Positions 24,409-35,982 of a DNA stretch of 64,000 nucleotides are shown in pieces. This DNA is from Streptobacillus moniliformis DSM 12112 (GTDB lineage: Bacteria; Fusobacteriota; Fusobacteriia; Fusobacteriales; Leptotrichiaceae), in contig NC_013515.1 of NCBI RefSeq assembly GCF_000024565.1, positions 434,001-498,000 on the forward strand. The letters are read 5' to 3'. The notes below the pieces were generated by a model that saw nothing but the letters and a program-made list of their open reading frames with translations, did no database searches and was not told the DNA's origin. A program made the translations under genes and the position numbers. The stretch's first letter is position 1; each line of letters begins with the position of its first letter.

Positions 24409-24444
24409 TTGTCGTTGACAAATATTTGTCGTGAGGTGTATAAT
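24409..24444 (+). promoter_or_regulatory. Autotransporter promoter with overlapping TTGTC/GACAA motif
   Basis: TTGACA at 24415-24420, 18-nt spacer, TATAAT at 24439-24444. A small palindrome TTGTC-GTT-GACAA covers the -35 box, and TTGTCGT occurs again at 24426-24432 inside the spacer (first copy 24409-24415). The repeats are candidate regulator sites. Confidence 0.65.
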
Positions 24445-24475
24445 GTCTATATATTTATTAATAAGTGAGGGTTTT

Positions 24476-27400
24476 ATGAATATTAAGGAATTTCGTTTTC
24501 ATTTTGTATTTTTATTTATACTAACAAATTGTTCATCGTATCATGCTGATGAATATGTAGTTAAACAACTAAAAAATAAACCAGTAGAATATGTTCCATC
24601 AAGTGATGTTTCAAAAAAGAATTTAGGTATAAATGAATCATTAGAAGAAGTAAAAAAAGCCGAAAAAATATTAAATGAAAATGAAAACCCCGTTATAATA
24701 TACGAACTATTATTAAGTAGAGAAACAAATGATAAGACAAGAAATAAATATAGTTTTTTAAATAATGATGAAAATATAAATTACAGTAGCTTAGGAGAAT
24801 CTGGTATTTTTAATAGTCATGCATTTGATGTAACTGAAGCATTTATGGATACAGATAGTAATGGTGTTGTAAGTGATGCTGAAAAAAATGCTTTTAATGG
24901 AAAAAATCCAAAAATAAAGCTACTTAGAAGAGATGCTGATGTTCTTAATGCTGTAGGAATAATAAATATGTCATATAGTATAGTTAATCATAATAAAAAT
25001 CTTTCATATTTACAGAGTAGTAGTAAATATTTAGATAAAATAGATCCTAGAGATATAAATCGTTTAGAAGATTTTTTAACTACAAAATTAATAGATAGAA
25101 ATTATGTATATAATCAAAGATTATTAATAAGTGCTATAGGTAATGGAAATTTTAATGATATAAAAACAGAAAAATTTTCTAGTGAAATATTAAATATATA
25201 TCAAGTTATGTCGCCTGAAATGCAAGCCCTTGCAAGAAGTGAAAGTATTTTTGTAAAAAATTCATTTAAAAAAGATAATGAACTTATGAAAAAATTTAGT
25301 AAGGATTTTCCAATATCGTATACAGATATTGATAATGTTCAGTACATAGATAGATTTAAAAAAGATATACCTCAAGTTTACCCCTTATTACTAAGAAGTG
25401 CTACTGTTGGAGAAAATGGTCTTTTAAAGGCAGATAAAGAAGGAGAAATACCTAAGTTTGGTTCATCATTTTCATCACCAAGAATAGCAAGACTAGCCTA
25501 TGATATTAAAGAGAAATATCCATTTTTAACATATCAACAAGTAAAACAGGTAATACTTGGAACAGCAAGTCATGCAAATGATGGTTATTTAAGTGATAGT
25601 GTAGGTTGGGGTAATGCAAATAGAGAAAAGGCATTAAAAGGACCATCAGATTTTAATGCAGGATTAATAGATGAGATGAAATACTTTAAAGGTAATTATG
25701 ATAAAATATTTGATGAAAATGGTAACAGATATTTTTATGTAGATATAAAAAAAGATAAAGAATACACTTTTGAAAATGATATAACTAGTGGATTAACAGG
25801 GGATGGTAAGAGTACTGAAGAAAGCATCATAAAAATAAAAGGTGTAAAAAACTGGTATGATTATGAATATAACGCTACAGAACATTCTTATAGAATCCCA
25901 AAGGTATTAGAAAGTGAGAAACTATTTTATTCAAATGTAGCCCAAGCAGGACTAAGAAAAGATGGGGAAGGTAAGTTAATCTTAACAGGAAAGCAAGAAT
26001 ACAGTGCTCCATCACAAGTATTAGATGGAACTCTTGTTTTAAAAAATGATAGTAATTCAGATTATACTGTATATGAAAAAGGAACATTAGTTGTAGAAAA
26101 TATTAAAGGAAATGAAGACAAAGAAATCAAATTAAAGAACATATACACAGATGGAAATGTAAAGATAGATAGTAGTAAAACTAGCATAGAAAAATTACAT
26201 GGAACATATATGTCCAATGTTGAATTTAGTGGAAAAGAAATAAAGATAAAAGAGTTTAAGACAACAGGTGAATATATAGTAAGATTAAAAGAAGAAGATA
26301 TTAAAAATATTAATGGAGCATCTATAGGTCCTAAACTAACTATTGATAATTATGTGAAAGAAGATGCAGATTTTTTAAATAATCTATCAAACCCATTTTT
26401 AAAACCAGTAGTAATGAATGATGATAAGATAGTTAGTGTAAAATTTGTTAGCACATTAGATAATGAATTTAAGAAATTAGGGCAATTAGATGAAGATAAA
26501 TTAAAAGATATACCAAGCTATGATAGAAATAAGAAAAACTTCTTTGAAGAATATGGTAAAGTTGAAGCAATGCCTAGTCAAGTAAAATCTATGTTATTAA
26601 GTTCAAGCAGTAGTGAAGCAAAGAACCTATTTACAGATAATTATGCAAGTATAGTAGGAAATGTTATTAAAAATGAGATAGATAATAAGTATAATAGGAA
26701 TAATATAATATTAAATAATCTTGAAAAGGATAATAGATTATTCTTTGACACTTATGCAAGAACTAATATATTAAATGATAAGAAATTTAGTCCATTTGTT
26801 GATAATAATATAGGGGCAATATTAGGATATTCAAGAAAATTAAAAAATGGTAATAGACTAGACCTATATGGAATATATCAATATGGTAATGTTATATTTA
26901 ATAATAGTGGAAGTAATAAAACTAAAAGTATAAACCATTTATATAACATAGGATACAATTTAAGTAAAAGATTTATTGATATAATCATATTAGACATGGA
27001 AAATAGTGTAGGATATACTAAAAGTGATGTATATAATAATACTTCAAATGCAAGTGATAAAACAAATATAATTCATAGTTTAAGTATAAATCCTGGTATA
27101 AAGATAGGGCTTGAATTAAATTTTGATAAAATAAAGACAATATTTAGACCTTATGCAGGATATAATTTTAGTTTTGTGTTAGCTTGGGGAAAGAAAGATA
27201 ATACGTCTAGTAATACTGATTTAATAAATAAATTAAGAAATATAGCATTAACAAAATTAATAAATCATAATGTAGAATTTGGAATAGAAGTAGATAGTAA
27301 GATAAATAAACATTTTAGCATTCAAAATAGATTAACTTTTGACTATAATAGTCTTGATAAGATAGAGTTAAATCAAATTATAGCTGAAAAATTACATAAA

Positions 27401-27550
27401 ACATTAGGAAAAGGACTAGATAAGATAAGTGTAGGATATAATTTGGCGGCTAAGTTAAGACTTTTAGAAGGTATGAATGTTATAGGGAAAGTTAATATAA
27501 ATAGTAAGTTAAATATAGGATTAAATTTAGGTTTTGACTATAATTTTTAA
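24476..27550 (+). CDS. Autotransporter with subtilase-like (S8) passenger, possibly catalytically degenerate
   Basis: The 1024-residue protein begins with an export signal that includes a lipobox-like LTNC (Cys19). An EF-hand-like loop DTDSNGVVSDAE lies at about 125-136. Subtilase blocks follow: IINMSYS near 162, a GNGN segment near 222, and the serine motif GSSFSSPR with Ser331, then a GWGNANREKALKGP segment typical of fusobacterial S8 autotransporters. I cannot find the catalytic Asp or His motifs. A beta-helical or linker region spans about 430-720. The last about 280 residues form the autotransporter barrel and end in Phe. Start ATG 24476 follows GTGAGGG; an earlier in-frame GTG is upstream of the -10 box. 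Confidence 0.85.
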   Translation: MNIKEFRFHFVFLFILTNCSSYHADEYVVKQLKNKPVEYVPSSDVSKKNLGINESLEEVKKAEKILNENENPVIIYELLLSRETNDKTRNKYSFLNNDENINYSSLGESGIFNSHAFDVTEAFMDTDSNGVVSDAEKNAFNGKNPKIKLLRRDADVLNAVGIINMSYSIVNHNKNLSYLQSSSKYLDKIDPRDINRLEDFLTTKLIDRNYVYNQRLLISAIGNGNFNDIKTEKFSSEILNIYQVMSPEMQALARSESIFVKNSFKKDNELMKKFSKDFPISYTDIDNVQYIDRFKKDIPQVYPLLLRSATVGENGLLKADKEGEIPKFGSSFSSPRIARLAYDIKEKYPFLTYQQVKQVILGTASHANDGYLSDSVGWGNANREKALKGPSDFNAGLIDEMKYFKGNYDKIFDENGNRYFYVDIKKDKEYTFENDITSGLTGDGKSTEESIIKIKGVKNWYDYEYNATEHSYRIPKVLESEKLFYSNVAQAGLRKDGEGKLILTGKQEYSAPSQVLDGTLVLKNDSNSDYTVYEKGTLVVENIKGNEDKEIKLKNIYTDGNVKIDSSKTSIEKLHGTYMSNVEFSGKEIKIKEFKTTGEYIVRLKEEDIKNINGASIGPKLTIDNYVKEDADFLNNLSNPFLKPVVMNDDKIVSVKFVSTLDNEFKKLGQLDEDKLKDIPSYDRNKKNFFEEYGKVEAMPSQVKSMLLSSSSSEAKNLFTDNYASIVGNVIKNEIDNKYNRNNIILNNLEKDNRLFFDTYARTNILNDKKFSPFVDNNIGAILGYSRKLKNGNRLDLYGIYQYGNVIFNNSGSNKTKSINHLYNIGYNLSKRFIDIIILDMENSVGYTKSDVYNNTSNASDKTNIIHSLSINPGIKIGLELNFDKIKTIFRPYAGYNFSFVLAWGKKDNTSSNTDLINKLRNIALTKLINHNVEFGIEVDSKINKHFSIQNRLTFDYNSLDKIELNQIIAEKLHKTLGKGLDKISVGYNLAAKLRLLEGMNVIGKVNINSKLNIGLNLGFDYNF

Positions 27551-27581
27551 AAATGGGGATTTTTAAAATTCTCATTTTTTT
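27548..27581 (+). terminator. Terminator after the autotransporter gene
   Basis: Stem AAAAATGGGGA / TCTCATTTTT (with G-T pair) followed by T run. Confidence 0.75.
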
Positions 27582-27618
27582 AACTTTTATGATATAATTT
27601 AAATAAAAAGGTGTAAAT

Positions 27619-29394
27619 ATGATAAATAAATTTGATGAACTTATTAATGAAAGAAAAGAATTTCAAAGAATATCAGATAATGTATCTGAAGTAAAAATAT
27701 TGTCCGAAATAGTAAAAATGGCTAAAGACATTTATGGTGAAATGTCTAATGAGTATATCTATTATCTAAATGAGCTTGGAGGAGTTTCTAAATATATAGG
27801 AGAATATGAATTAGGAATTAAAAACTTAAAAAAAGCTCTATCTTTAATAGAAATTAGAGAGGGTAAAAGATCAATTCCTTATGCTACATCTTTGTTAAAT
27901 CTTGCAGAAATATATAGATTTAGTGGTGATTTAGATAATATAGAGGATATATATTTAGAAACTTTATCTATTTTTGATGAAAATAAGTTAGAAAAAGAAT
28001 ATGTTTATGCAGGTTTATGTAATAATATAGGGCTTTTTTATCAAAATATTGGAAAAATAGAAAAAGCTATTAAATATCATGAAAAAAGTTTAGAAATATT
28101 ATTATATATGCCAGATCATTTAGTTGAACTTGCAACTACATATAATAATCTAGTTATGCCATATAAGGAAATAGGTAAAATAAGACAGGCATATTCTAAT
28201 TTAGATAATGCTTTAGAAATATATGAAAAAACTTTAGGTAAGGAACATTCAATGTATGGTGCTGCACTTAATAATAAGGCTATACTTAAATTTGAAGAAG
28301 GAGAGTATAGGAGTGCTTTAAATATATCTGAAATAGCATTAGAAATCACCAAAAAATCCTTTGGAGAAAATAGTTTAAATTACAAAAATCTATTATCTAA
28401 TGTAGAATATATTAGAGATATAGTTAAAAAAAGTGAGAAAGAAATAAGTGTAGAAGTTACAAATGATTCAAAACTTATAGATAAATCAAGGGAATATACT
28501 AAAAAATATATTTTACCAAAGATTAAAGAAAAAAATGAAAAACTTTTATCTAAAATTACTATAGCTCTGATAGGAGAAGGTTCAGAAGTAATAGGATATG
28601 ATGATGAATATTCAAAAGATCATGATTATACATTTATGCCTATAATTTTCTTAAATGATGAGGACTATGAAAAATATCATAAAGAACTTGAAGATATTTT
28701 ACTATCTTTACCTCAAGAGTTTTTAGGTATAAAGCATGTAAATAATAATGTGGTAAATGAAAGACGTGGAGTTAAAAAAATAGGAGATTATCTATATAGA
28801 TTTATAGGAAAAGAAAATGCAAATTTAACTATAGAAGATTATAGGAAAATACCTGAACATGCTCTATTTTCATTAACAAGTGGAGAAATATTTTTTGCAG
28901 GTAATGAAGAATTAAGCTCTATATTATCAACATTAAAATATTATCCTGATGTTATTAGAGAAAATAAGATAGCTACAGTATGTACTCGTATTGCTCAAAG
29001 TGGACAATATAATTATTTAAGATTAATGAAAAGAGAAGATAAAATTGCTGCAAGTATAGCAAAAAATATATTTATAGAAAATGTAATACATTTAATATAT
29101 TTACTAAACTTTAAATATATGCCTTTCTATAAATGGTCAGCAAGAGGATTAAAAGATTTACCTATATTAGGTAAGGAAATAGAAAAAAGATTATTTGAAT
29201 TAATAGATAATACTACACTTGATAAACATCAAATGTCTAATAGAATTGAAGAAATATGCTATTTTCTTGTAGAAGAAATTAAAAAACAGGGATTAAGTAA
29301 AGAAAAAGGATATTTTTTAATAAATCATGCAATAGCAATACAAAAAAATATAGATGATGAATTTTTAAAATTATGGACAGCATTTGAAGATTAG
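27619..29394 (+). CDS. TPR protein with C-terminal DUF4037 nucleotidyltransferase-like domain
   Basis: The 591-residue cytoplasmic protein has about six tetratricopeptide repeats over residues 40-265 (for example YAGLCNNIGLFYQNIGKIEKA and ATTYNNLVMPYKEIGKI). The C-terminal half matches the DUF4037 type, which looks like a nucleotidyltransferase fold: GEGSEVIGYDDEYSKDHDY gives a GS then D-x-D pattern, and later blocks include MPIIFLNDEDY and ATVCTRIAQSGQYNYLRLM. A TATAAT lies at 27593-27598 but without a convincing -35 box. It is followed 8 nt later by a DUF4125 gene. The two types co-occur in other Firmicutes and Fusobacteria, as I recall; the substrate is unknown. Confidence 0.8.
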   Translation: MINKFDELINERKEFQRISDNVSEVKILSEIVKMAKDIYGEMSNEYIYYLNELGGVSKYIGEYELGIKNLKKALSLIEIREGKRSIPYATSLLNLAEIYRFSGDLDNIEDIYLETLSIFDENKLEKEYVYAGLCNNIGLFYQNIGKIEKAIKYHEKSLEILLYMPDHLVELATTYNNLVMPYKEIGKIRQAYSNLDNALEIYEKTLGKEHSMYGAALNNKAILKFEEGEYRSALNISEIALEITKKSFGENSLNYKNLLSNVEYIRDIVKKSEKEISVEVTNDSKLIDKSREYTKKYILPKIKEKNEKLLSKITIALIGEGSEVIGYDDEYSKDHDYTFMPIIFLNDEDYEKYHKELEDILLSLPQEFLGIKHVNNNVVNERRGVKKIGDYLYRFIGKENANLTIEDYRKIPEHALFSLTSGEIFFAGNEELSSILSTLKYYPDVIRENKIATVCTRIAQSGQYNYLRLMKREDKIAASIAKNIFIENVIHLIYLLNFKYMPFYKWSARGLKDLPILGKEIEKRLFELIDNTTLDKHQMSNRIEEICYFLVEEIKKQGLSKEKGYFLINHAIAIQKNIDDEFLKLWTAFED

Positions 29395-29402
29395 GAGATA
29401 AT

Positions 29403-30017
29403 ATGGAAAAAGAAGAATTAATAAATGAAATAATATTAAGGGAATGGGAAATGTTTAAGGTTTTAAAAAATACAGGAGGGCCTGCTGAATGTCAGAATAA
29501 TAAGCCTGAATTTGAAATTATGAGAAAAGGTCAATGGGAAAAATTACCTATTAATATATTACAAAGCTATCTTATAGACCTAAAAAATGCAGAAGAAGTA
29601 GGAAGAAATTTATTGGAAGAGAAATATATTAGAATGATGAAATTTTCAGCTCCAAAAGAATTTGAAGAAGTTAAACATCTACTTCCTGAACTATCACCAG
29701 GTATAGAGGTATTGATTAATAAAATAGAAAAAATATATCTTATGTGGGGAGATGAATTTGAAAAAAAGTTTCCTAAATTTTCAAAATTATGTAGACCTTT
29801 AAGAAATGAAGGAGATATACCAGAAAAAGCATCATTACAAACATATTTAAGAGGAGAATTATCTAGTTATTCTTTAAAAACAGTTCTATTTTATTCAGAC
29901 TATATAGAAGAATGTGTTAAAAAAGGAGTTAATTTAATTTATGAAACACATAAAGAAGTTGTAAAAATGAAAGGCTTTGAATCTATAGAATCAGTAGAAA
30001 ATGCACTTGTAATATAG
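29403..30017 (+). CDS. DUF4125 family protein
   Basis: This 204-residue cytoplasmic protein has the DUF4125 layout: LINEIILREWEMFKVLKNTGG, PAECQNNKPEFEIMRKGQW, and LLEEKYIRMMKFSAPKEFEE. It is mostly helical, with no known catalytic motif visible. It lies in an apparent two-gene unit after the TPR-DUF4037 gene (8 nt). Its role is unknown; a joint function with DUF4037 is inferred from adjacency. Confidence 0.8.
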   Translation: MEKEELINEIILREWEMFKVLKNTGGPAECQNNKPEFEIMRKGQWEKLPINILQSYLIDLKNAEEVGRNLLEEKYIRMMKFSAPKEFEEVKHLLPELSPGIEVLINKIEKIYLMWGDEFEKKFPKFSKLCRPLRNEGDIPEKASLQTYLRGELSSYSLKTVLFYSDYIEECVKKGVNLIYETHKEVVKMKGFESIESVENALVI

Positions 30018-32715: not shown

Positions 32716-33753
32716 ATGAAATCATTTTTGAAATATCCTGGTGGAAAACAAAAAGAGATAGGAATTATAAGAGATAATTTACCTAGTAAAATATATGATT
32801 ATTATGAACCTTTTATAGGTGGTGGATCAGTTTATTTAGCTCTTGATTTTGAAAAGAAATATTATATAAATGATTTATCAGAAGATTTAATAAATCTTTA
32901 CAATTGCATTAAAAATCAAAATGAACTATTTTTTAAAGAATTAGATAAAATAAACTATAATATAAAATTAGCTAAGGAAATATCAGTTAAGGAAGCATAT
33001 GATTTCTATGAAAATTATCAAAATTATGATGAATTTTTAACCTACTTTTTAACTAATGCTAAAATAGATGATTTAGATAATTTGAAAAATAAATTATACA
33101 TCTCTTTAAATAGAAAGTTAAAGTTAATAGATAGACTAGATAAAAGAAATATAGAAAAAATAGATATATTTAAAAACATAAAGACAGGAATAACTTCTGG
33201 TCTTTATGTTTATTATAGAGAGTTATACAATAATTTAAAATATGACAGTAAAAAAGAACTTAAAGCAGCTCTGTTTTACTATATAAGAGATTTTTGTTAT
33301 TCATCTATGTTTAGATATAACAGTTTTGGTGAGTTTAATGTTCCTTATGGTGGGATAAGTTATGATAATAAAAATTTAGATTCAAAAATAGAATTTTTAA
33401 AAAATGAAAATGTAGTTTCAAAATTAAAGAAATCGAAAATCACAAATGAAGATTTTGAAATATTTTTTAGGAAAAATAAACCTAAAAAAGAGGATTTCAT
33501 ATTTTTAGATCCACCTTATGATACTGAATTTTCTACTTATGATAATAATCCTTTTGGATTAGAAGATCATATAAGATTAAGAGATTTTTGTAAAAATACA
33601 GAAGCAAATTTTATGCTAATAATAAAAGAAACAGACTTTATTTTAGAACTATATAAGAATTTTAATATAAAGAAATTTAAAAAAAACTATACAGTAAGCT
33701 TTAAAGATAGAAACAAAAAAGATGTAAATCATCTTTTAATTACAAATTATTAA
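32716..33753 (+). CDS. Type II DNA adenine-N6 methyltransferase (D12/Dam class)
   Basis: The 345-residue enzyme has the D12-class motifs: KYPGGK at 6-11 (motif X), FIGGGSVYL at about 34-42 (motif I, SAM binding), and DPPY at about 265-268 (motif IV, catalytic), in the alpha-class order with the target-recognition domain between them. It would methylate adenine in a short site. It is followed 15 nt later by a restriction endonuclease gene, making a type II restriction-modification system. The recognised sequence cannot be read from the protein. Confidence 0.92.
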   Translation: MKSFLKYPGGKQKEIGIIRDNLPSKIYDYYEPFIGGGSVYLALDFEKKYYINDLSEDLINLYNCIKNQNELFFKELDKINYNIKLAKEISVKEAYDFYENYQNYDEFLTYFLTNAKIDDLDNLKNKLYISLNRKLKLIDRLDKRNIEKIDIFKNIKTGITSGLYVYYRELYNNLKYDSKKELKAALFYYIRDFCYSSMFRYNSFGEFNVPYGGISYDNKNLDSKIEFLKNENVVSKLKKSKITNEDFEIFFRKNKPKKEDFIFLDPPYDTEFSTYDNNPFGLEDHIRLRDFCKNTEANFMLIIKETDFILELYKNFNIKKFKKNYTVSFKDRNKKDVNHLLITNY

Positions 33754-33768
33754 GGGTGTGAGGGTTAT

Positions 33769-34593
33769 ATGACAGAATTTAATAAGAAGGCAATAGAGGA
33801 AATAGTTGATTCTAATATAAAAAAATTTGCTATGGGATTAGAAGAAAGATATATTAATGAATTAAATGATCCTAATGGAGTAATACATAGAAAGAAAAAT
33901 AACTGTTTTATTTCAGAATTAGGTAGAGAATTTATGTTTTATAGTGCATTTGTTAGAAGTTTTGATAGTTCATTTGGAAAAGTTTTAGAAAATATAGGAA
34001 ATTCAATAGCTAAATTAAACTATAAAGTTAAATCAGAAGTTTCATCTTTTTTACTTCCACAACAAAGTCAACATATAGATTATTTAATGTTAAATTATGA
34101 AAAGCATATGAAACCAAAAGTGGAAGATTATAAAAAATATAATATAATGATACCTAATGATGTAAGAAGTTTTGCAAAAAAACATAAAACGGATCATTAT
34201 TTTTATGATGAAGAAAATAAAACACATTATTTGATAGAATTAAAATCAAGTGGAGATTTAGATAATAAAAAAGCTAAAACTGAAAAAATAGCATTGTTAC
34301 AAGAATACTTCATTTTGAAAAATAGTATAAATTTAGATGAAGATATAAAAATATTTTTGGCTACAGCATATAATATATATGGTGAAGGAAATTATTGGAA
34401 ACAAGATAGAGTAAGACAGTTTTTTTCTGATGATGAATTAATGATAGGAAGAAAATACTGGAATTTTGTTTGTAAAGATGAAAAAGGTTTTGAAATTTTT
34501 TTTAATCAATATAAAAAAAGTTGTAATTATATAAGAAAAGTTTTATCTCAAATAAAAAATCTATATTTTTTAGATGAAACAGAAATAGATTAA
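33769..34593 (+). CDS. Type II restriction endonuclease (TdeIII-like)
   Basis: A 274-residue protein with a PD-(D/E)xK type core: ELK at about 157-159 (YLIELKSSGDLDNKKAKTEK, split here), preceded by HIDYLMLN and DHYFYDEENKTH. The ELKxxGDLDNKKA block recalls the TdeIII/MjaII group of type II enzymes. Its place right after the adenine methyltransferase supports the assignment. The recognition site is unknown. It starts at ATG 33769 with a GAGGG site and ends before a strong terminator. Confidence 0.8.
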   Translation: MTEFNKKAIEEIVDSNIKKFAMGLEERYINELNDPNGVIHRKKNNCFISELGREFMFYSAFVRSFDSSFGKVLENIGNSIAKLNYKVKSEVSSFLLPQQSQHIDYLMLNYEKHMKPKVEDYKKYNIMIPNDVRSFAKKHKTDHYFYDEENKTHYLIELKSSGDLDNKKAKTEKIALLQEYFILKNSINLDEDIKIFLATAYNIYGEGNYWKQDRVRQFFSDDELMIGRKYWNFVCKDEKGFEIFFNQYKKSCNYIRKVLSQIKNLYFLDETEID

Positions 34594-34618: not shown

Positions 34619-34669
34619 AAGGACTAATTCCTGTAAAATGCAGTACAAGATTAGTCCTTTTGTTTTTTT
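34619..34669. terminator. Bidirectional terminator between restriction gene and antitoxin
   Basis: Stem AAGGACTAAT / ATTAGTCCTT around an inner CTG..CAG hairpin, flanked by T-rich sequence on the right. The right arm overlaps the last codons of the - strand antitoxin gene. Confidence 0.8.
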
Positions 34670-34911
34670 CTTACTTTATTGAAAATTTCAGATTTAGAAA
34701 GACGAGTAGAAGATTTTTTTGTAAAATTATCTGCCTTATCAAGTTCTTTTTCAATATTATCAGTAAGTTCAGAATATTGTTCTATACTAATTAACACCAT
34801 AGTTCCATAACCATTTTTAGTTAGAAATACTGGTGAATTTGAATTAATAACAATTTCTTCTATCTCAGGAAACTTATTTCTTAAATCAGATACTGGACGA
34901 ATATTAATCAT
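34651..34911 (-). CDS. Phd/YefM-type antitoxin, orphan
   Basis: An 86-residue protein with the Phd/YefM fold at about 1-60 (MINIRPVSDLRNKFPEI, PVFLTKNGYGTMVLISIEQY), and a charged C-terminal tail that would bind a toxin. A strong AAAGGAGGT site lies 9 nt before ATG on the - strand. A RelE/YoeB or Doc toxin gene is normally next to it, but the terminator follows at once and no toxin frame is present on either side. It could be a leftover or a trans-acting regulator. Confidence 0.85.
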   Translation of the reverse strand: MINIRPVSDLRNKFPEIEEIVINSNSPVFLTKNGYGTMVLISIEQYSELTDNIEKELDKADNFTKKSSTRLSKSEIFNKVRKKQKD

Positions 34912-35166
34912 AATGACCTACCTCCTTTTATATCAATATAATATCATAATTTTATCTTAACTTGCAATAAAAAAATAGGTCGTGATATATTTAATTAATT
35001 GTCAATACATATGTTACATAATAAGAAATAAATCATAGGAGGCTATTTTTTCAATTTATAAACTTTTTTACACTCTCTTCTTTTATTTAAAAAGGAAAAC
35101 TCTCACTTTTGTAGAAATTCCCCTATATTTTTATTTTAGTTCGGAACAACCACAATTGTGGGATAA
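34912..35166 (+). other. Non-coding accessory flank with decayed sequence
   Basis: No intact gene is seen. It holds the - strand antitoxin ribosome-binding site (about 34918-34926), dispersed repeat copy C, and about 130 nt of unrecognised sequence up to an in-frame stop (35164-35166) that truncates the nuclease gene. Confidence 0.5.
34995..35033 (-). repeat. Dispersed repeat, copy C
   Basis: 39 nt identical to 17681-17719 in reverse orientation. Here it stands alone, next to the restriction-modification and nuclease remnants, about 17 kb from the other copy. Confidence 0.9.
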
Positions 35167-35982
35167 GGTTTTTCTAAAGAAAATTTAAAGCATATTAGGT
35201 ATTGGTATCAATTTTATTCTAATGGTTTAATTGGGTTACAGCCTGTAACCCAATTGAAAAAGATAGAACAAATGATAAAAAGTATCCCTTGGGGACATAA
35301 TCAAAGAATTATGTATAAGTGTAAAACAGTAGAAGAAGCTTTGTTTTATGTAGGAAGAACACTTGAGAATGGTTGGAGTAGAACAGTCCTTGAACATCAA
35401 ATTGAAAGCAACTTATACAAAAGATTAGGAAGTGCAATTACAAATTTTGAAACAATCTTACCTGCACTTCAATCAGATTTAGCTAAACAGACAATTAAAG
35501 ATCCTTATAATTTTGATTTTTTAACATTAACAGAAGATTATAATGAGAAAGAGCTAGAAAAAGAATTAGTTTCTCGAATAACGGATTTTTTATTAGAACT
35601 TGGTGCAGGTTTTTCTTATGTTGGAAAGCAGGTACATATAAAAGTTGGAGAAAGTGATTTTTATATTGACTTATTATTTTATCATATCAAATTGCACTGT
35701 TATGTTGTTGTTGAATTAAAAACAGAAAAATTCAAGCCTGAATTTGTAGGACAGCTTAATTTTTATGTAACAGCAGTAAATAGAGATTTAAAAGGTAAAG
35801 AAGATAATCAAACAATTGGTATATTAATTTGTAAAGACAAAGATAATGTAGTAGCAGAGTATGCACTAGCAGATACATCTCAGCCAATAGGGATAAGTAA
35901 ATATGAAATTAGTGAGTTATTAGAAAAAGAATTTAAAAGCAGTTTACCAAGTATTGATGAGATAGAGAAAGAATTTAAATAA
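35167..35982 (+). pseudogene. 5'-truncated PDDEXK nuclease (DUF1016/YhcG type)
   Basis: The frame is open from 35167 but has no start until TTG 35254. The visible part reads GFSKENLKHIRYWYQFYSNG, then SIPWGHNQRIM, ALFYVGRTLENGWSRTVLEHQI, and the PDDEXK core GESDFYIDLLFYHIKLHCYV followed by VELKTEKFKPEFVGQLNFY. This is the middle and C-terminal part of DUF1016 family proteins, which are normally about 340 residues. The N-terminal about 80 residues are missing or out of frame behind a TAA. A shorter product from TTG 35254 (242 residues) retains the nuclease domain, so activity is not excluded. Confidence 0.75.
35229..35255. repeat. 27-nt near-perfect palindrome inside the nuclease remnant
   Basis: AATTGGGTTACAG and CTGTAACCCAATT face each other across a single C. 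It covers the codons just before TTG 35254. Confidence 0.9.

Follow-up and report, generated by a model that had tools for sequence, protein, structure and literature searches.

The question raised by this locus is what is done by two neighbouring genes whose products are recognisable mainly by domains of unknown function, and whether they belong to one system. They lie in a stretch of 64,000 nucleotides from Streptobacillus moniliformis DSM 12112 (NC_013515.1, positions 434,001 to 498,000), the whole of which is referred to here as the window. The original prediction had described a TPR-DUF4037 gene followed after 8 nt by a DUF4125 gene, and both the open reading frames and the Pfam searches bear this out: the genes share one strand and are separated by 8 nt, the 591-aa upstream protein matches TPR_12 (1.4e-27) and DUF4037 (106.5 bits against a Pfam cut-off of 22.1), and DUF4125 spans almost all of the 204-aa downstream protein (243.4 bits against a cut-off of 25), whose closest named relative among the matches listed is a DUF4125 protein of Streptobacillus notomytis (90% identical). 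In the following, T denotes the TPR repeats, N the nucleotidyltransferase (NTase) together with the DUF4037 helical domain and D the DUF4125 protein or domain:

27619..29394, + strand: TPR-nucleotidyltransferase-DUF4037 protein (T and N), 591 aa; open reading frame with Pfam TPR and DUF4037 matches
27706..28467, + strand: TPR array, about aa 30-283; Pfam TPR_12 and TPR_10 matches, limits approximate
28477..28839, + strand: predicted NTase catalytic core, about aa 287-407; alignment to homologues that start here, the fold of the relative L118 being kanamycin NTase-like
28573..28626, + strand: motif G-E-G-S...D-H-D, aa 319-336; conserved across 122 homologues
28840..29136, + strand: DUF4037 (PF13228) helical domain, aa 408-506; Pfam 1.3e-30, with R468, K505 and W506 present in 122/122 homologues
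29403..30017, + strand: DUF4125 protein (D), 204 aa; PF13526, 2e-72; model with pLDDT 96.6 and pTM 0.91

The 591-aa protein scores 45.5 bits with the FxSxx-COOH system TPR protein family (NF040586), below the NCBIfam cut-off of 300 bits, and a defence-system library returned a single generic TPR match to the same protein and nothing else; a sequence search against solved structures gave nothing meaningful for either protein. A promoter-like site at 27569-27598 was discarded as being at chance level (21 such sites found, 21.9 expected). Directly upstream of the pair, positions 24431-27550 encode a large protein with a subtilase domain, the C-terminal end of which we take to resemble an autotransporter barrel. 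Further downstream lie a type II restriction-modification pair (32716-34593: a D12-class adenine DNA methyltransferase and then a TdeIII-type restriction endonuclease) and, at 34651-35982, a minus-strand gene for a Phd/YefM-type antitoxin followed by a DUF1016/YhcG-type PDDEXK nuclease-domain protein; among the listed open reading frames near this antitoxin gene no obvious toxin was found.

With respect to N, the catalytic motif (aa 319-336) precedes the segment that Pfam recognises (aa 408-506), and DUF4037 therefore names the helical half of N and not its catalytic core: the GS...DxD pattern that had been ascribed to DUF4037 is present, but it lies in front of that domain. Among 122 homologues (six partial N loci were left out of the alignment and two more of the tree), G321 and S322 are found in 120, D334 and H335 in 121 and D336 in 116. 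For the fold we turned to L118, a natural N-D fusion whose N is 33% identical to that of the window, and modelled the part downstream of its TPR region (pLDDT 96.3; pTM 0.78, so that the arrangement of N relative to D is uncertain). Residues 1-287 align with kanamycin NTase (1kny) at a VIA Z of 12.7 (rmsd 6.2, 232 aligned), followed by ANT(4') (6un8, 12.6), 3c18 (12.1), LinB (3jyy, 10.7) and ANT(6) (8vxb, 9.0); these Z values are middling (best unrelated row 8.6), and Foldseek alone gave nothing at E <= 0.001 (best row 3c18, 4.5e-3, probability 1.00). Judged from this model, N resembles a polymerase-beta-type NTase with an ANT/KNT-like fold and an intact motif, in line with the NTase-like fold that had been predicted. 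The NTase reading of DUF4037 itself was already known, since the accessible part of PMC3710099 places DUF4037 together with the C-terminal domain found in aminoglycoside NTases and describes it as "occasionally fused to TPRs". Kanamycin NTase/ANT(4'), LinB and ANT(6), whose alignments extend over most of N, share with N both the combination of an NTase core and a helical C-terminal domain and the G-S...D-x-D motif; N differs from them in the TPR array in front and in the DUF4125 partner, and antibiotic substrates for it are without support. An outgroup subfamily of NTase-DUF4037 proteins (L151, L153, L154 and L155) carries D-H-M in place of D-H-D and clusters in the tree with DUF4037 genes carried by plasmids of Streptomyces and Rhizobium; its members are possibly degenerate NTases.

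The DUF4125 protein had been described as helical and devoid of catalytic motifs. The first part agrees with the model of the window protein, which is helical almost throughout; the second is not supported as it stands, as about a dozen polar residues are nearly invariant: E14, C30, Q31, R41, N69, K74, Y75, R131, Y148, E152 and Y156 are each present in at least 109 of 111 sequences, as are, among others, F18, F37 and M78 (the set includes seven sequences from the benzylsuccinate-synthase operons described below; one partial D was left out). Such nearly invariant residues may mark a binding or active site. Comparison of the model with the PDB gave no match at E <= 0.001, although a missing match is not proof of a new fold; the best VIA row (an F-BAR domain, Z 4.4) is not significant, and no viral structure matched at E <= 0.001.

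A scan of GTDB confirmed at least 555 relatives of DUF4125, and the best 80 of these, together with the window and 19 loci of related genomes, make up 100 distinct D loci (L049 was left out as a duplicate of L096). In 66/100 N immediately precedes D on the same strand, with 64 within 150 bp (median gap 15.5), and it is joined to D in one open reading frame in a further 24 (four of them cut by a contig end); one locus has N and D in another order, and in nine N was not found in cis. T is present in or within 6 kb of 88/100, and 18 complete T-N-D polypeptides were found, 13 of them in records titled Lachnospiraceae; an apparent T-D-N layout in L088 proved to be an artefact of domain ordering. 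T-N-D is one conserved three-part module that occurs as separate genes, partly fused or as a single polypeptide: the proposed layout of repeats, enzyme and small partner is kept across phyla. When the neighbourhoods of D loci were clustered, the only families shared between unrelated groups were those of the module and broad ones, regulators for example.

Dependence between the two genes is one-sided. In eight genomes with a D locus devoid of N in cis, N was found elsewhere in seven, including L131 and L132, where the N of the genome sits beside another D; the ninth such locus (L039) belongs to a genome in which another D is part of a complete module (L038). A strong DUF4037 match accompanies D in 32/32 D genomes among 120 genomes centred on the window and in 33/35 of a second sample; one of the two remaining cases is a divergent D, the other a fragment with a stop. 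By contrast, 18 of 51 genomes with strong DUF4037 have no DUF4125; four of these 18 hold the outgroup subfamily, two could not be placed because they are too partial, and one is located at the end of a contig. Of the 20 N-centred loci examined, 9 have a recognisable T adjoining N. Strict co-occurrence, which the original prediction had proposed to survey, thus applies from D to N but not from N to D, and the frequent separate occurrence that it had named as counting against a joint system is seen for the NTase and not for DUF4125. The dependence of D on N, together with the N-D fusions, suggests that D is a substrate or an adaptor of N.

The same features bear on a reading in which the pair would be a HEPN-MNT-like toxin-antitoxin system, with D as toxin and N as an antitoxin that modifies it. 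HEPN-MNT pairs likewise consist of an NTase followed by a small helical partner, D is seldom found without N whereas N can stand alone, and DUF4037 is listed in the HEPN superfamily in the available text of PMC3710099. Nevertheless, no histidine is conserved in at least 90% of the 111 D sequences and DUF4125 therefore has no Rx4-6H motif, unlike HEPN-MNT pairs, even though the same text mentions some HEPN proteins that do without it. N and D form one chain in 24/100 loci, which fits poorly with a toxin and its antitoxin, and D is a core gene in one family: within the window's own (f1, taken as Leptotrichiaceae) it is present in 28/28 genomes that are at least 90% complete. Of the less complete members, one (G004, 88% complete) shows neither D nor N nor a PFL-like glycyl-radical enzyme (GRE), and in three others this GRE is present and D absent. 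D was furthermore not found in phage records nor, with a single query, in viral contigs. Taken together, we consider a toxin-antitoxin function very improbable. Among plasmid records, D occurs in only one, of chromosome size and from Fusobacterium (L169, NZ_CP084075.1, Fusobacterium vincentii: a 2.1-Mb circular "plasmid" with DUF4125 and an NTase, most likely a chromosome); N-like genes were found on 11 plasmid records, and plasmid-borne DUF4037-like genes of the outgroup kind exist as well.

GREs serve in formate metabolism, choline cleavage, deoxynucleotide synthesis and the activation of toluene without oxygen, and are destroyed by oxygen; to our knowledge, how cells care for them beyond the activase is poorly known. 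All 61 distinct D genomes tested hold a GRE gene (PF01228 or PF02901). PF01228 is present in 18/18 D genomes hand-picked for diversity (NrdD in 14/18) and in 3/14 control genomes. Among 398 relatives of an Uliginosibacterium genome, 15 have D and 44 a PFL-like GRE, which is found in 14/15 genomes with D against 30/383 without (Fisher p 7e-14), the exception (G372) having PF01228 only in NrdD and in a 180-aa fragment; among the 120 window-centred genomes the counts are 32/32 with D against 59/88 without (p 5e-5), and none of these p-values, nor the one given below, takes account of kinship. Many genomes thus have a GRE without D, as the 59/88 above, and among the controls E. coli, Bacteroides ihuae and Lactococcus lactis do likewise. 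Shared anaerobic life could account for part of the correlation, and it is the basis of a further explanation, by which the link is indirect: the module would regulate another trait of fermenting or anaerobic bacteria, and both module and GREs would simply mark anaerobic life. Many D carriers are found in Lachnospiraceae, Bifidobacterium and Desulfovibrio, groups known as anaerobes, and GREs are also frequent without D in the Fusobacteriota sample (59/88). Against it stand the Uliginosibacterium relatives, where GREs are rare (44/398) and yet accompany D in 14/15 genomes, and where 7/8 D genomes still have a GRE (p 3e-7) after the seven genomes with D linked to benzylsuccinate-synthase (bss) genes are set aside.

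These seven of the 15 D genomes also provide a physical link: their D genes are located at a distance of 3.4-3.7 kb from a gene for a PFL-like GRE, and D and N both lie inside bss operons; the seven loci form one clade in the tree. In L162 the order is BssD (TIGR04003, 577 bits, cut-off 496), BssA (PF02901), BssB (PF18512), an AAA protein, a protein of 580 aa that matches VWA weakly, DUF4125, DUF4258, a 307-aa NTase-DUF4037 protein, an epimerase and an amidohydrolase. Homologous genes for BssE, BssF, DUF4258, the epimerase and the amidohydrolase recur in the other six loci; a TPR gene was detected in none of the seven. According to the accessible part of PMC5874301, BssF has 580 aa, BssJ 307 aa and bssG comes after bssF. 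Because gene order and lengths match, DUF4125 probably corresponds to BssG and N to BssJ, both assigned from position and length: here too DUF4125 follows a 580-aa BssF-like gene and the NTase-DUF4037 gene precedes a BssK-like epimerase, but unlike in the window N and D are not adjacent and T was not found. In the same source a bssJ disruption mutant still grows on toluene and m-xylene, from which, if N is BssJ, a non-essential role of the module would follow; disruption of bssF, possibly polar on bssG, abolishes growth on both. BssG-J are given as of unknown function in the text available from PMC7285207. A similar arrangement is described in excerpts of PMC12583861, where LrcL (DUF4125) and LrcM (DUF4037) are expressed from genes after bssE in a limonene-degradation locus: likened here by domain description, they place both domains side by side in a GRE-dependent pathway, and these excerpts assign them no function.

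The first signs of a link to GREs had come from reading gene neighbourhoods, where in some loci D or T-D adjoins a GRE activase and N is followed by nrdG-nrdD. A GRE or activase is found nearby in 8 of 121 D- or N-centred loci, representing five independent groups: L039 has a choline TMA-lyase (TIGR04394, 1647 bits) and its activase, in L063 T-D is directly preceded by a GRE activase, in L078 D is followed by an activase and a hydroxyproline-dehydratase-like GRE, and in L085 a PFL-like GRE lies about 6.3 kb away from T-N-D, separated from it by BssK- and BssL-like genes; in one clade (L140, L143, L146 and L147) nrdG-nrdD follows N, and T was seen upstream in the first three of these. The GREs of L078 and L085, to which the initial scan (one PFL, two NrdD/NrdG and two other radical-SAM queries) was blind, were detected with an enlarged query set. 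About 1.5 GRE genes are expected by chance in the 1.63 Mb examined (density 53 matches in about 56 Mb), and the linkage is therefore a modest excess; its weight lies in the variety of the GREs. Four further candidates were not counted: the PFL gene about 3 kb from N in L153, as that N belongs to the outgroup subfamily with D-H-M; the radical-SAM neighbour in L069, for which no match to an NCBIfam family was obtained at 1e-30; in L040, an NrdD fragment at some 7 kb distance from the module; and a weak radical-SAM match in L141. Most D loci do not adjoin a GRE gene, the window included: its genome has one DUF4125, one DUF4037 and one PFL-like GRE, and since the pair lies about 0.69 Mb from the latter there is no GRE linkage in the window. 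That only 8/121 loci have a GRE or activase nearby speaks for an indirect link, and the operon linkage to chemically different GREs speaks against it; on balance we regard an indirect link as unlikely.

We favour a direct connection, in which the T-N-D module is a dedicated, non-essential and general GRE accessory whose N transfers a nucleotide to a protein. For this explanation as a whole our confidence is evenly poised, and it is no higher owing to the modest linkage in the unselected sample and its absence in the window; a GRE-accessory role of the module, considered by itself, appears reasonably probable. It is this link between module and GREs that is new here: it has no part in the original prediction, and in the literature searched we found nothing that ties the DUF4125/DUF4037 pair to GREs in general, PMC12583861 being, in the portions available, the closest. 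As to mechanism, the following account of the reaction catalysed by N, of its NTP and target and of its physiological consequences is inferred. The TPR array would recognise a protein of the GRE system, either the GRE or its radical-SAM activase; N would move a nucleotide from an NTP onto a protein, with D as its adaptor or substrate; and the modification would adjust, park or protect the radical enzyme while being dispensable for basic catalysis. TPR arrays usually bind proteins, and their presence suggests a protein target; that N modifies a protein is, as a step on its own, a tentative proposal in which our confidence falls short of even.

The target could also be a small molecule, such as a metabolite resembling a sugar or a side product of radical chemistry, which N would modify and for which D would provide a second step or a binding protein. 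The top structural matches of N are aminoglycoside and lincosamide NTases, an epimerase is present in the bss operons and in one natural fusion, and an amidohydrolase comes next in the operon, all of which would suit such a role. It is less easily reconciled with T in or near 88/100 D loci, given the usual preference of TPR arrays for proteins, or with the lack of antibiotic-type mobility (D in no phage record and in one chromosome-sized plasmid record), and we hold a small-molecule target to be rather improbable. For tRNA, another target named in the original prediction, the results speak neither in favour nor against.

Should a protein indeed be modified, the module might constitute an unrecognised general layer of GRE control, in which nucleotidylation by a TPR-guided NTase acts on the GRE, on its activase or on the DUF4125 adaptor; we put this forward as a possibility that is on the doubtful side. 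It would allow a radical enzyme to be parked, shielded or released as conditions change, and would be shared by gut anaerobes that ferment, by bacteria that degrade toluene and by some anaerobic ribonucleotide reductases. A role as general GRE helper would in turn help to explain two genes of the toluene operons that are still uncharacterised and tie them to a widespread module of gut anaerobes, and it could be tested in strains that have already been genetically manipulated.

Two further loci have unusual surroundings. In L095 (7998-13545) DUF4125 and TPR genes are immediately followed by a MoxR-type AAA ATPase, and near DUF4125 the bss operons likewise encode one AAA and one VWA protein, the former being BssE. 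In L170 (4572-7859, minus strand) a single open reading frame of 1095 aa combines an NAD-dependent epimerase domain, TPRs, NTase-DUF4037 and DUF4125. Its epimerase domain is 32% identical to the bss epimerase, and the fusion recalls the BssK-BssJ-BssG set, a likeness that is a hint at most because epimerases form a very large family.
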